Assembly (NCBI GenBank): GCA_947471505.1
Contig: CANIWM010000008.1
Coordinates: 1-64,000, forward strand
Direction of reading: 5' to 3'
Length of the DNA: 64,000 nt
Origin: Chthoniobacteraceae bacterium
GTDB lineage: Bacteria; Verrucomicrobiota; Verrucomicrobiia; Chthoniobacterales; Chthoniobacteraceae
In this document: positions 19,254 to 22,629 of the stretch, piece by piece
Layout: each line of letters begins with the position of its first letter
Numbering within the stretch: position 1 is the stretch's first letter
The notes under the pieces: generated by a model
Told to the model about the DNA's origin: nothing
The model's database searches: none
Seen by the model: the letters and a program-made list of their open reading frames with translations, nothing else
Translations under genes and position numbers: made by a program

Positions 19254-19347
19254 TCAACTAAATGCGCTAAAAGACGCTAAAATTTTTGCCACACACACGA
19301 CGTTCACATAGCCTCCTTTTAGCGCCCTTTAGCGCCTTTAGCTGATC
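19252..19347. repeat. Imperfect inverted repeat built from GCGCTAAA units
   Basis: The left arm (19252-19282) starts GATCAACTAAATGCGCTAAA. The reverse complement of the right arm (19317-19347) starts GATCAGCTAAAGGCGCTAAA. About 27 of 31 positions match. Each arm holds two to three direct copies of a (G/A)CGCTAAA unit. It fills the gap between the OppC-like gene and rpe. It may be a small non-autonomous element or a transcriptional hairpin. Confidence 0.7.
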
Positions 19348-19358
19348 AAAAAAACACC

Positions 19359-20018
19359 ATGCACCCGACCATCATCGCACCATCCATCCTCGCCGCCGAC
19401 TGGGGGCGTCTCCACGAACAAATCCGAGCCGTCGAAGCCGCAGGCGCAGACTGGCTCCACCTCGATGTCATGGACGGACACCTCGTCGATAACATCAGCT
19501 TCGGCCCCGGCTTCTGCGACGCCGTCGCCCGCGTCGCCACCACCCCGCTCGATGTGCATCTCATGATTTCGCGCCCCGATCACTACTGGCCGCGCTTTGC
19601 CAAACTCGCCCACAACATCACCATCCACGTCGAAGCCCAATGCGACGTCGCCGCCACCCTCCGCGACATCCGCGCGGCGGGCATCGGCGCAGGCATCTCC
19701 CTCAAACCCGGCACCCCCTTTAGCGAAATCGAGCCGCTCCTCCCCCTCGTCGATCTCGTCCTCATCATGACCGTCGAGCCCGGCTTCGGCGGCCAGCCCT
19801 TCCTCGCGGGCCAGATGGAGAAAGTCACCGCCGCCCGCGACCAGCGCACCATCCGGCAGCTCAACTACCGCATCCAAGTCGATGGCGGCATCAACCACAC
19901 CACCGGCCAACAAAGCCGCACCGCCGGAGCCGACACCCTCGTCGCCGGCAGCAGCATCTTCGGAGCACCCGACATGGCCGCCGCCATCCGCACCCTCCGC
20001 GCCGTGGACACCCCATAG
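19359..20018 (+). CDS. rpe: Ribulose-phosphate 3-epimerase
   Basis: 219 residues, a TIM barrel. IIAPSILAADWGRL, GADWLHLDVMDGHLVDNISF (with the metal-binding His and Asp), PLDVHLMI, MTVEPGFGGQPF and QVDGGINHTT are the family signatures in order. It interconverts ribulose-5-phosphate and xylulose-5-phosphate in the pentose phosphate pathway. The C-terminal phosphate-binding segment reads TLVAGSSIFGAPD. Confidence 0.96.
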   Translation: MHPTIIAPSILAADWGRLHEQIRAVEAAGADWLHLDVMDGHLVDNISFGPGFCDAVARVATTPLDVHLMISRPDHYWPRFAKLAHNITIHVEAQCDVAATLRDIRAAGIGAGISLKPGTPFSEIEPLLPLVDLVLIMTVEPGFGGQPFLAGQMEKVTAARDQRTIRQLNYRIQVDGGINHTTGQQSRTAGADTLVAGSSIFGAPDMAAAIRTLRAVDTP

Positions 20019-20053
20019 CGGTTTCTGGGTTAAAAGTGGAGAGGTGGAGCACG

Positions 20054-20180
20054 GACGGGATCGGCCCCCAAGGAGGGGGAACGTCCCGTTCCCCTGAACC
20101 ACGAAGTGGTTCCCAGCGGCTCGCACGTTAAGGGAGGCGCTTCGCGCCTCAGGGGAACGGGACGTTCCCCCTCCTTGAGC
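20054..20180. repeat. Long inverted repeat with internal hairpins (type A)
   Basis: Arms at 20070-20097 and 20149-20176 are perfectly complementary over about 28 bases (core GGGGGAACGTCCCGTTCCCC). Outside them GACGGGAT faces ATCCCGTC. Inside lie two small palindromes, GAACCACGAAGTGGTTC and AGGCGCTTCGCGCCT. The first palindrome recurs in the element at 45025. No coding capacity. Confidence 0.85.
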
Positions 20181-20236
20181 CCGTATTATCCCGTCTTCCC
20201 TAAATAAAGCGCCGATGTGAGCAGGCAAAAAGACTG

Positions 20237-20394
20237 GCGCGGGGGAGCGCGGGCTTCCAGCCCGTCCTCGCCGGCATCCTGCCGGGGAGTGGGAGACGCA
20301 CGCTTCGGCAGAGGGCCATTCTCGCGAGTGCCACGGTGTGTGTATCCGGCAGGATGCCGGACACTGCGGGCTAGAAGCCCGCGCTCCCCCGCGC
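20237..20394. repeat. Long inverted repeat with GCGGGCTTCCAGCCCG-type arms (type B)
   Basis: Arms at 20237-20264 and 20367-20394 are complementary apart from one base near the hairpin centre. Each arm itself contains a palindrome (CGGGCTTCCAGCCCG and CGGGCTAGAAGCCCG). Inside, CCGGCATCCTGCCGG faces CCGGCAGGATGCCGG. Nested palindromes of this kind are common between genes in PVC-group and acidobacterial genomes. Confidence 0.85.
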
Positions 20395-20495
20395 ACATCC
20401 TCAGTGCTTCTGGGTGAATCTCTGTAGCACGCTGTTCACTCAGCCCCAGGCATTGCGAGTCGCTCTGGGGCACGACGCCGGACCGCGTAGATACG

Positions 20496-20810
20496 TTGTT
20501 CGATGTGAACTTGCTGCGCAGCACCCAGCAAGTCATCCCCGGAGCGCCGGTGGATACCCTGTGGACGCCCGCTAACCGGAGACTTACGACGACGGCCCTC
20601 CCCGCAGGCGCGACCCGCCTAGAAGCTTGGCGCGAAGGCCCCGGTGGGATGCCCGAGCTGCTCGCCATCGGCAATCCCGGCGAGCTATTCGTGGAAATCC
20701 CGGCGACCGTCACGTTCGACTCGGGCGACCTCTATCAACTCTGGCTGCAAGCCCGCAATTCCCGAGGCAGCAGCCCCGCCGGGCCGAAGCAAAACTGGAC
20801 GGCACCGTAG
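20496..20810 (+). CDS. Possible gene remnant, fibronectin-III-like fragment
   Basis: A 104-residue frame with beta-sheet character (LPAGATRLEAWREG, LYQLWLQARNSRGSSPAGPK) resembling the last strands of a fibronectin-type domain. It has no signal peptide or convincing ribosome-binding site, and repeats lie on both sides. It may be the tail of a lost surface protein. Weak evidence. Confidence 0.3.
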   Translation: MFDVNLLRSTQQVIPGAPVDTLWTPANRRLTTTALPAGATRLEAWREGPGGMPELLAIGNPGELFVEIPATVTFDSGDLYQLWLQARNSRGSSPAGPKQNWTAP

Positions 20811-20896
20811 CGGGATCGCGGTTTTTTTTGAACCGCAGATACGCGCAAATGCACGCACGGATTGTGGCAGTGAGGGCCAAAGGCCCGATGTCATAC

Positions 20897-21025
20897 CAGC
20901 CTAGGGCAACGCCCTAGGTCGTCTGGCAGAAGAATCCCAGCCCTGAAGGGGCGCTCCAAGATGAGCCGCCCCTTCAGGGCTCGTTCGTTGCGCGGGCCGG
21001 AACCTAGGGCGTTGCCCTAGGCTGG
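20897..21025. repeat. Inverted repeat with CCTAGGGC palindromes (type C)
   Basis: Arms at 20897-20919 and 21002-21025 pair as CAGCCTAGGGCAACGCCC against GGGCGTTGCCCTAGGCTG. The centre carries AGCCCTGAAGGGGCG facing CGCCCCTTCAGGGCT. No coding capacity. It lies 40 bases beyond the end of the leucine-rich-repeat gene and may act as its terminator. Confidence 0.85.
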
Positions 21026-21066
21026 GATGTCGCCGCACCTTCGGTGCTCCGCGCATTCGCGTACGG

Positions 21067-21807
21067 CTATGGTTCGATGATTTTCGTGTTCGGGAGGGCG
21101 GCCTTCAGCGATGCGACGCTCTCCTTCGACAGCCCCGTGCAGCCGGTGAGATAGACCGATTGCAGAGCGGGGAGGTTCTTGAGCGCGTCCACATTCGTAA
21201 GCCCCGTGCAGCCGATGAGCACGACCCCTTGCAGAGCGGAGAGGTTCTTGAGCGCGTCCACATTCGTCAGCCCCGTGCAGCCAGTGAGTATGAGCGTTTT
21301 CAGAGCGGAGAGGTTCTTGAGCGTGTCCAAGTCTGTCAGCCCCGTACATCTGTCGAGGCGGAGCCATTGCAGGGCGGTGAGGTTCTTGAGTACGTCCACA
21401 TTTGTCAGCACCGCGCAGTTGAGGAGCACCACCTCTTGCAGTCGAGTGAGGGGGCGCAGGGCGGAGAGTTCGCGCAAGGTGGCCGCATTGTCGATGCGCA
21501 GCCCCTTCGGATTCAGCAGGTGGACGATGGCGAGGTGTTGCTCAAACGCTTCGCTCGTCAAAATACCAATGGCGGTTACGCCATCCGACCAAGTCCCTTT
21601 CTTAAATGCGGCCTTCCAGTTCAGCCGAATCTCTTCGATCGGGTCGGTGTATTGCACCTTCCACCCCAGCGCCCTTGCCTCTTTGAGCGCAGCGCGGAAG
21701 GCGTATTGGGTCCACCCGCCGTATGCGAGGAACCCGGCGGCGAGGAGGAGGAGCCAGCGTTGGAGGTGCCACTTTCGGCGCGGTGGTGGTGGTGTGTCGG
21801 TGGTCAT
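21067..21807 (-). CDS. Membrane-anchored leucine-rich-repeat protein
   Basis: 246 residues from the ATG at 21807. A Pro/Arg-rich cytoplasmic start and one membrane segment (LLLLAAGFLAYGGWTQYAF) precede an exported part. About residues 115-230 are 23-residue leucine-rich repeats of the form LKNLSALKTLILTGCTGLTN, at least five in succession, each ending in VDA or similar. LRR arrays usually bind other proteins. The longer frame upstream of 21807 overlaps the next gene and is rejected. No partner is evident. Confidence 0.8.
   Translation of the reverse strand: MTTDTPPPPRRKWHLQRWLLLLAAGFLAYGGWTQYAFRAALKEARALGWKVQYTDPIEEIRLNWKAAFKKGTWSDGVTAIGILTSEAFEQHLAIVHLLNPKGLRIDNAATLRELSALRPLTRLQEVVLLNCAVLTNVDVLKNLTALQWLRLDRCTGLTDLDTLKNLSALKTLILTGCTGLTNVDALKNLSALQGVVLIGCTGLTNVDALKNLPALQSVYLTGCTGLSKESVASLKAALPNTKIIEP
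21172..21447. repeat. Four tandem 69-bp coding repeats
   Basis: The motif GAGGTTCTTGAG recurs at 21172, 21241, 21310 and 21379, exactly 69 bases (23 codons) apart, within the leucine-rich-repeat gene. The first two to three units are nearly identical at the DNA level, suggesting recent expansion. Confidence 0.9.
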
Positions 21808-21845
21808 GGTGAGCGAACGTGCGGAGAGGGGTATCGGGCAATCTC

Positions 21846-22349
21846 CTACAGCCCCCGTGGATGCCGCAGCACGGTGTTCTTTGATGAGCGGGACTTTGTG
21901 CTCCAGCGGGGGCCTTCGCCAGCTCCGTGCCAGCCGGTATCGAGGCGCAGGCCCGCGATTTCCAGAAAGACGTGGCCGGACCTCGCGTAAATCGTGATCC
22001 ATTCGCCACGCCCACTGCGGCCATAGTTGCGGAACCCATCGGAAGTCAGGCAGCCATCGAGCAGGTCCACTTCGCGCAGAACGTAGGAGGTCATGCCCGA
22101 GCAATCGTAGCCGGAATCCACCCCCTCGCAGCGCCCGCCGCCGTAGCGATAGGGCAGGCCGACGATGCGGTTGCCGGCAGCGATAGCGTCTTTCACCACA
22201 TCCGGCGCACCGTCGGAGACTTCCGCCAATCCATCCACGATGCGCCCGCCCTTTGAGGGAGAGTATCGGTAGTAAACCGTGCCGCCCCCCGAGCAAGCAG
22301 CGAGAAAGAGCGAAGCAAGAACAGCCAGCGATAGAGCGAAACGGTGCAT
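21846..22349 (-). CDS. Lipoprotein with NlpC/P60-like hydrolase fold
   Basis: 167 residues. The N-terminus LAVLASLFLAACSGGG is a lipoprotein signal with the lipobox LAAC. The catalytic region shows GLPYRYGGG, then YDCSGMTSYVL with the nucleophile Cys, and SGHVFLEIAGLRLDTG with the catalytic His, the pattern of NlpC/P60 cysteine peptidases that cut peptidoglycan stem peptides. The domain is short and the usual third polar residue is unclear. It is probably membrane-anchored in the periplasm. Confidence 0.78.
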   Translation of the reverse strand: MHRFALSLAVLASLFLAACSGGGTVYYRYSPSKGGRIVDGLAEVSDGAPDVVKDAIAAGNRIVGLPYRYGGGRCEGVDSGYDCSGMTSYVLREVDLLDGCLTSDGFRNYGRSGRGEWITIYARSGHVFLEIAGLRLDTGWHGAGEGPRWSTKSRSSKNTVLRHPRGL

Positions 22350-22478
22350 CCCGCCTACATGCCCGACGCCGCCGGGAAATCCAGCTTTCGTTCGCGGGTG
22401 TGATCAAACGTGGAATGAGTGCGAGTGGCGTGGGCGCTTCGCCCATGAAGGGGCGACACGCCAACCCTGCGAGTGTAA

Positions 22479-22629
22479 CGAGCCAAGGAGCGGCGGCATT
22501 CCTGCCGCCGTCCCCAAACGCGCCAAGCGCCTGATCCGAAGCGTGCGGCTCTCGGAATCTGCACGGTTTTCTGATTGGGCGCTTCGCGCTGTAGGGACGG
22601 CGGCAGGAATGCCGCCGCTCCTTGGCTCG
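22479..22629. repeat. Inverted repeat with GCGGCGGCATTCCTGCCGCC arms (type D)
   Basis: Arms of about 36 bases at 22479-22515 and 22594-22629 are complementary (CGAGCCAAGGAGCGGCGG facing CCGCCGCTCCTTGGCTCG). A CGCTTCGCGC-like hairpin lies inside. The element occupies most of the 394-base gap between the divergent lipoprotein and AsmA-like genes. The frame that remains open through it in front of the AsmA-like gene is not regarded as coding. Confidence 0.85.

Follow-up and report, generated by a model that had tools for sequence, protein, structure and literature searches.

Palindromic repeat families beside rpe and REP transposases (RAYTs) in frame inside housekeeping genes of Verrucomicrobiota

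The three palindromic elements that lie behind rpe in the DNA analyzed here (A, B, and C) very probably represent three unrelated REPIN families, each served in trans by a RAYT, with the RAYT of element B embedded in frame in alaS. The site beside rpe is itself a dense but ordinary REPIN site, with members that are newly found and of a known kind.

Palindromic elements around rpe

The window, that is, the whole 64-kb stretch analyzed (G000:C8:1-64000), belongs to a genome of 6.07 Mb in 153 contigs (G000; 96.7% complete), which was compared with other genomes of the same genus (G001 onward); the genomes named are MAGs or bins, and the rest are drafts. The features around rpe are as follows.

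19254..19358, no strand: element D, a palindromic insert with TGATCA at both ends, between a permease gene and rpe
19359..20018, + strand: rpe, ribulose-phosphate 3-epimerase (TIGR01163), directly upstream of A and B
20043..20068, no strand: left extension of A, common to other copies of the larger repeat enclosing A
20069..20177, no strand: element A, read as a REPIN; exact 29-nt arms, two inverted GGAG-plus-hairpin units with two small hairpins between them
20237..20394, no strand: element B, read as a REPIN; 49-nt arms at 88%, of which 21 nt are exact; putative cognate RAYT inside alaS (G000:C1:56130-56742)
20496..20810, + strand: ORF, possible gene remnant between B and C (Pfam search); 26-nt gap in G008
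20872..21049, no strand: element C, read as REPIN-like; exact 24-nt arms at 20896-20919/21002-21025 and an inner perfect 15-nt pair at 20939-20981
21067..21816, − strand: leucine-rich-repeat (LRR) protein gene adjoining C (PF12799 LRR_4, E value of 1.6e-10; start codon assumed)
22479..22629, no strand: element E, read as a fourth REPIN family, with the most matches; exact 36-nt arms; outside the preliminary description

A preliminary description had placed three palindromes of different families near rpe. A, B, and C were located at that spot and their arms verified by scanning all 64 kb for exact inverted arms (≥14 nt, spacing of ≤200 nt), which returned only six pairs, all within 20069-22629 and all belonging to A, B, C, and E; about 0.05 such pairs would be expected by chance in the window (arithmetic assuming equal base use). 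The suggestion of an accumulation site thus fits, as the four elements that pass the scan fall within 2.6 kb, E lying 1.5 kb beyond the three palindromes. The lengths first given hold for B (158) and C (130) but not for A, whose palindrome measures 109 bp (exact arms at 20069-20097 and 20149-20177; 46-nt arms at 87%) and whose repeated unit extends left to about 20043. The identity of rpe is secure (254.5 bits against a TIGR01163 cut-off of 212.6), no Pfam family matches the ORF at 20496-20810 at an E value of 0.001, and the LRR gene contains a 69-bp tandem repeat. Element D occupies 105 nt in G000 but is missing from G008, which has 19 nt there, and no further copy of it was found among 1.56 Mb of compared locus sequence.

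As a palindrome is matched on either strand, the hits in the own genome were grouped into places by hand from the match tables. DNA searches gave 49 matches at 22 places for A (plus 5 places with 23 to 24 nt only), 14 matches at 7 places for B (four full-length copies including that of the window, one half, and two beside a transposase), 11 matches at 5 places for C, and at least 80 matches for E (40 of 63 candidates scored). None of A, B, and C is therefore unique, each set of arms being repeated in the genome, so that three families do meet beside rpe. Within the genus, C has matches in 10 of 10 genomes and A in 4 of 10.

All four elements consist of two inverted REP hairpins that enclose a spacer, and all are dispersed in multiple copies. 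In their hairpin units, A and E combine GGAG with an 8-bp stem, and in B GGAG is followed after two bases by a 6-bp stem; as had been proposed, the arms have no common sequence, nothing being shared beyond the GGAG tag of A, B, and E. Element C has an 8-bp stem and a tag that reads CCAG rather than GTAG or GGAG and is called REPIN-like for that reason. With two inverted hairpin units each, A, B, and C are best read as REPINs, C as REPIN-like. Among 20 aligned copies of A, changes on both sides were seen in 9 of 33 consensus pairs, without a shuffled control, and in the stem, for example, A-T pairs are exchanged for G-C pairs; the copies are related, two of the 20 (L110 and L115) were wrongly cut but counted, and four others (L008, L016, L030, and L122) were excluded. 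By eye, C adjoins the end of an LRR gene at three of its five places (the window, C79, and C49; L041, L042, and L044), and the gene and the element were perhaps duplicated together.

Transposases flanked by the same hairpin units

A RAYT had been guessed at as the source of mobility, and the guess holds for each of A, B, and C: Y1 transposases flanked on either side by their hairpin units were found for all three. The own genome has nine Y1_Tnp matches. One of them (C1:56244-56540) is enclosed by two half-units of B (C1:56130-56178 and C1:56695-56742; 94 to 96% identity), and another (G000:C97:20199-20426) is enclosed by two full copies of E. None of the nine loci has A units; A-type units with 77 to 80% identity to the window copy bracket a RAYT in G009 (C85). 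Units of C, in inverted orientation, bracket Y1 matches in G001 (C198), G005 (C236 and C12), and G008 (C196). At the C12 locus of G005 (L342), the Y1 match covers profile positions 46 to 121 only, in a 108-aa frame, and an extra gene lies between the C units. Judged by these flanking units, all four families are tied to a RAYT of their own, as in the REPINs of Pseudomonas. Of 60 Y1 matches across the genus, 40 are in frames of <300 aa and 12 in frames of ≥500 aa, 10 of these 12 having a recognized host.

RAYTs inside alaS and clpB

The B transposase lies in frame inside alaS, in an ORF of 1244 codons without a stop (G000:C1:54552-58196, L135). The frame passes from the N-terminal part of AlaRS through a REP read as GARGSAGFQPAVSGILPG, the transposase, and a REP read as PARQDAGQHGLEARAPL to the C-terminal part of AlaRS. 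TIGR00344 (alaS) scores 785 bits over three stretches that surround the insert, with a REP_Tyr_transpos match between them, and solved AlaRS structures align on both sides. At an E value of 1e-20, the RAYT-bearing gene is the only alaS match in its assembly. A second RAYT lies in frame in clpB (G000:C42:4637-7888, L144; 1117 codons, no stop), where the NCBIfam ClpB model matches in stretches around REP_Tyr_transpos and ClpB structures align on both sides. The gene measures 3252 nt in G000 versus 2553 nt in G008, a difference of 699 nt or 233 codons, the gap being scattered by the aligner; the alaS junctions are blurred in the alignment with G008 because that genome has other sequence in the linker concerned. 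The NCBIfam equivalog model for RAYTs, NF047646 (cut-off of 80 bits), scores above its cut-off in one recG host (82.9) and one priA host (82.2) and below it in eight other hosts (63.1 to 79.8; G000 alaS, 73.2; G000 clpB, 63.1), and Y1_Tnp in G000 alaS scores 20.1 against a cut-off of 23 in the whole-protein scan and 24.2 in the genome search.

Both inserts are also found in G006 and G002, and G008 has neither. Without an insert are alaS of G008, G001, G004, G005, G007, and G009 (that of G003 is fragmentary) and clpB of G008, G003, G004, G005, G007, and G009 (that of G001 is fragmentary). G002, with 7% contamination, has the insert-bearing clpB plus pieces of an uninterrupted clpB (C368). Further RAYTs are found in thrS and recG of G006 and, close to the end of a contig, behind an MTase-like part in G003.

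Several other arrangements were seen. RAYTs are fused in frame before recF in G006 (C86, L220) and G003 (C622, L225). In G006 (C149, L216) and G002 (C274, L222), inspection by eye showed that alaS contains, besides the RAYT, a REP-like peptide in its later part that has no transposase. At the other linker of alaS, G000 (L135) has a low-complexity repeat, SDSPVGTHPAGQ, at about aa 316 to 395, which may be a decayed insert; the counterpart of this linker carries a RAYT in some other species. Four candidate in-gene cases (G006_C10, G002_C161, G008_C34, and G008_C133) were excluded because they have no recognized host, and G008_C104, labeled as a recF fusion through incompletely masked RAYT letters in the recF representative, is actually a free-standing RAYT.

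In-gene RAYTs across the phylum

GTDB genome contigs were scanned with an alignment of six in-gene RAYTs, and the best 80 of 169 relatives gave 79 loci (L236 to L314), all from MAGs or bins and four of them, judged by equal lengths, on the same contigs as loci of the genus comparison: by title, 77 are from Verrucomicrobiota, one is from Kiritimatiellota, and one is from another bacterium. By similarity to representative hosts, 73 of the 79 were assigned a host (alaS, 30; recG, 29; thrS, 6; metH, 5; carB, priA, and MTase-like, 1 each), and 6 are free-standing. As the query was built from in-gene RAYTs, this share holds for the subfamily and not for RAYTs at large. The same host was matched on both sides in 63 of the 79 loci; 5 of these 63 are the representatives themselves, whose host names come from NCBIfam, as does that of alaS. 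The other 10 matches are one sided, 9 of them running off a contig end and one (L241) not; the names of the one-sided priA and MTase-like hosts likewise rest on NCBIfam and not on an independent match, that for MTase-like being weak (31.9 bits against a cut-off of 900). Two loci (L239 and L300) have two RAYTs at two sites in one alaS reading frame.

The HUH histidines are kept in 78 and 79 of the 79 loci and the catalytic tyrosine in 77. Of 73 loci with enough flanking sequence, 50 have inverted arms of ≥14 nt around the RAYT, compared with 0 of 73 when the right flank was shuffled once; the six remaining loci have too little sequence behind the RAYT. Together with the low dN/dS values given below, these features point to a transposase whose function is kept.

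Predicted structures of the fusions

Two fusions were modeled. The recG fusion (L247; 899 aa, 26 sequences) gave a pLDDT of 72.6 and a pTM of 0.60: RecG lies mostly at 70 to 90, the RAYT part at 66 to 83 (residues 411 to 510) and at 52 to 55 in its last helix (residues 511 to 540), and the stretches 351 to 403 and 546 to 574, which include the REP-encoded linkers, mostly at 25 to 40. The alaS fusion (L297; 1096 aa, 19 sequences) gave a pLDDT of 70.9 and a pTM of 0.38, with a poor N-terminal part, 63 to 91 in the RAYT part (residues 451 to 590), and <50 in the linkers (residues 415 to 445 and 590 to 610). The models show what is predicted to be a folded transposase between disordered linkers. 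A Foldseek search with the recG model had RecG 1gm5 as its top match, and no RAYT structure was among the matches listed (best 50). One RAYT core had a weak match to TnpArep 4er8 (E value of 0.15), behind a sulfotransferase (E value of 0.0043). By sequence alignment, the inserts fall at residues 455/473 of RecG 1gm5, 327/330 of ThrRS 1nyq, and 522/525 of ClpB 6dju, sites that are probably tolerant loops.

Alternative explanations

The RAYT domain could have been domesticated, i.e., could be useful to the host enzyme or the cell and no longer mobile, which we consider doubtful. Low dN/dS and intact catalytic residues would agree with such a role: the median dN/dS is 0.045 for alaS (16 pairs), 0.095 for recG (8 pairs), and 0.037 for thrS (2 pairs), compared with 0.124 for free-standing RAYTs (3 pairs), metH giving no pairs. 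These pairs, of 78 to 99.5% identity and each within one host, share members, and the values range from 0.03 to 0.56, the highest being from a pair with three differences. Host labels also cluster on the RAYT tree, with 24 changes against 52.6 when shuffled and a minimum of 10, a pattern of general fidelity to one host gene with occasional switches. The tree was made by a quick method and has many weak forks; it leaves out four duplicates and two rows that lack a RAYT match, and one of its three recF rows is the free-standing RAYT of G008_C104. Against domestication, the same subfamily is found in unrelated enzymes and seems to switch among them (24 changes where 10 would do), its presence in one genus is patchy, with the near relative G008 lacking both inserts, and the flanking REPs exist as dispersed copies.

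It is unlikely that A, and perhaps C, spread along with or within larger inverted-repeat elements (MITEs) through the action of a transposase other than a RAYT, although A may have ridden with another element, because many of its copies lie within a larger repeat with outer arms GGTGTGATTAAAAGTGGAA and share sequence well past the REPIN. At least eight places (the query's own included) match ≥200 nt of a 271-nt extended A query (40 of 90 candidates scored); the window copy matches this query (from L003) from 20043 onward and, in a comparison of flanks by eye, lacks the right outer arm. The want of A units at the nine Y1 loci of the own genome and of a GTAG or GGAG tag in C points the same way. 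Other copies of A, however, have no outer arms visible by eye (L006, L016, L025, and L030), and the units that flank RAYTs in G009 (A type) and in G001, G005, and G008 (C) argue for the RAYT-served families proposed above.

The position of the palindromes directly 3′ of rpe could suggest that they are kept as transcription terminators or mRNA stabilizers of rpe rather than as mobile DNA. Evidence that bears on this comes from G008, the nearest relative compared (rpe protein 98% identical, the next being 80%; DNA here 94 to 96% identical), which carries A and B at the same place and whose compared locus ends in C. From 19968 to 20394, 427 nt are identical in the two genomes, whereas the surroundings differ by about 3 to 6% (24 of 660 positions in rpe and 56 of 942 in the permease gene), and the next longest identical stretch in the 3.2 kb compared is 212 nt. 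The identity might be taken as selection on the hairpins, but the tract includes the spacers, which suggests recombination instead, and it ends exactly at the last base of B; our guess is recombination that ended at the REP. Copies lie at many places in the genome, and use by the host would not exclude mobility. A role in rpe expression in place of mobility is thus quite unlikely, and since A, B, and C all belong to repeat families, a terminator role for the host gene is rejected as the sole explanation. The same-genus genomes yielded no empty site for any of the three at the rpe locus, since G008 shares A and B and the others have no DNA alignment behind rpe (no blastn match there; in G006, no rpe match at an E value of 1e-30), and no movement of the elements was seen in the genome comparisons. 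G008 has element B but no RAYT in alaS, so that either the B transposase was lost there or B arrived by another route.

Removal of the in-gene RAYTs by protein splicing, RNA splicing, or translational bypass, by which the host enzyme would be made without the RAYT, is very unlikely. Conserved housekeeping hosts are used repeatedly, as with inteins, but neither an intein model nor a splicing (Hint) domain is among the NCBIfam matches listed for 10 fused or partly fused proteins (for carB, the best 25 of 37) or among the Pfam matches of two proteins. A stop-free frame runs across the RAYT and its two REPs, although removal would make this unnecessary; moreover, the linkers differ among 22 examples, and the inserts fall between conserved host blocks.

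Assembly chimeras or chance open frames are scarcely credible, even though the named cases are from MAGs or bins and REPs are repeats of the kind at which assemblers err, given 79 loci from many records in the same few hosts, 63 of them with both host halves in frame, a codon-position pattern, and a dN/dS below 1.

Proposed mechanism

In IS608, hairpins are cut and moved as single strands. REPINs are nonautonomous mobile elements, and RAYTs, which are HUH/Y1 single-strand DNA transposases, would act in trans and cut and move their REP hairpins as single strands, as proposed for REPINs. The three palindromes would have landed one after another in tolerant space behind rpe, an area that includes a probably decaying ORF. 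The alaS-RAYT fusion would be translated whole and not spliced, the transposase being a domain hung, in a tolerant place, on two disordered linkers encoded by REPs. In alaS, the RAYT would gain the expression of an indispensable gene while its REPINs spread elsewhere, and its position inside such a gene would make imprecise deletion lethal. We lean, if only slightly, toward a still broader reading, an intein-like life without splicing: HUH transposases of Verrucomicrobiota would settle inside indispensable ORFs, losing their own stop codon and turning REP hairpins into disordered linkers, would revisit the same few hosts, and would send out REPINs.

RAYTs seem unable to copy themselves, and what prevents their loss is a stated open question, for which addiction or a host role has been suggested in the accessible part of the Pseudomonas report (PMC3116915). 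A transposase built into alaS, thrS, or recG suggests a testable answer, in that its deletion would kill or hurt the cell. A further implication would be that long proteins of the family were set aside by at least one earlier survey, as far as its accessible text goes (PMC6006769). More generally, a mobile enzyme of about 200 residues with its linkers would be shown to sit inside essential enzymes in many members of the phylum, and REP DNA to serve as a coding linker.

Comparison with known systems

What appears to be new, on the sequence evidence, is the residence of complete RAYTs within housekeeping proteins, an uncommon mode of existence; short intragenic REPs are already known. In the open literature, as judged by titles, openings of abstracts, and text passages, no paper was found that describes complete RAYTs fused in frame into host genes. 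Inteins are sporadic in-frame elements in conserved housekeeping genes and are similar in their sporadic in-frame insertion, but the elements described here match no intein model and give no sign of being spliced, and their enzyme is a REP transposase. Rickettsia palindromic elements are likewise in-frame palindromic inserts in working protein genes; unlike the fused RAYTs, they are short and have no transposase inside.

The Rickettsia elements are cited in a study of intragenic GTAG/CGTC REPs, which, in its accessible part, describes in-frame palindromes in housekeeping and repair genes of a verrucomicrobium, Opitutus terrae, and REPs in tRNA synthetase genes of other species (PMC3733652). 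Those inserts encode 20 to 82 aa, and the part available mentions no enzyme inside them, whereas the hosts described here accommodate a complete transposase core of about 155 aa with no stop. A survey of the TnpA-Y1 family, as far as it is accessible, notes unexpectedly long proteins and describes the HUH/Y1 core and REP association that the present RAYTs have in common with it (PMC6006769). The closest parallel to the site beside rpe is in Pseudomonas, where, according to the accessible part of the report, REPINs are inverted REP doublets of several families per genome, each tied to a single-copy RAYT by which mobilization in trans was proposed (PMC3116915). The REPINs and RAYTs described there are extragenic; here, the RAYT of element B is an internal part of alaS.
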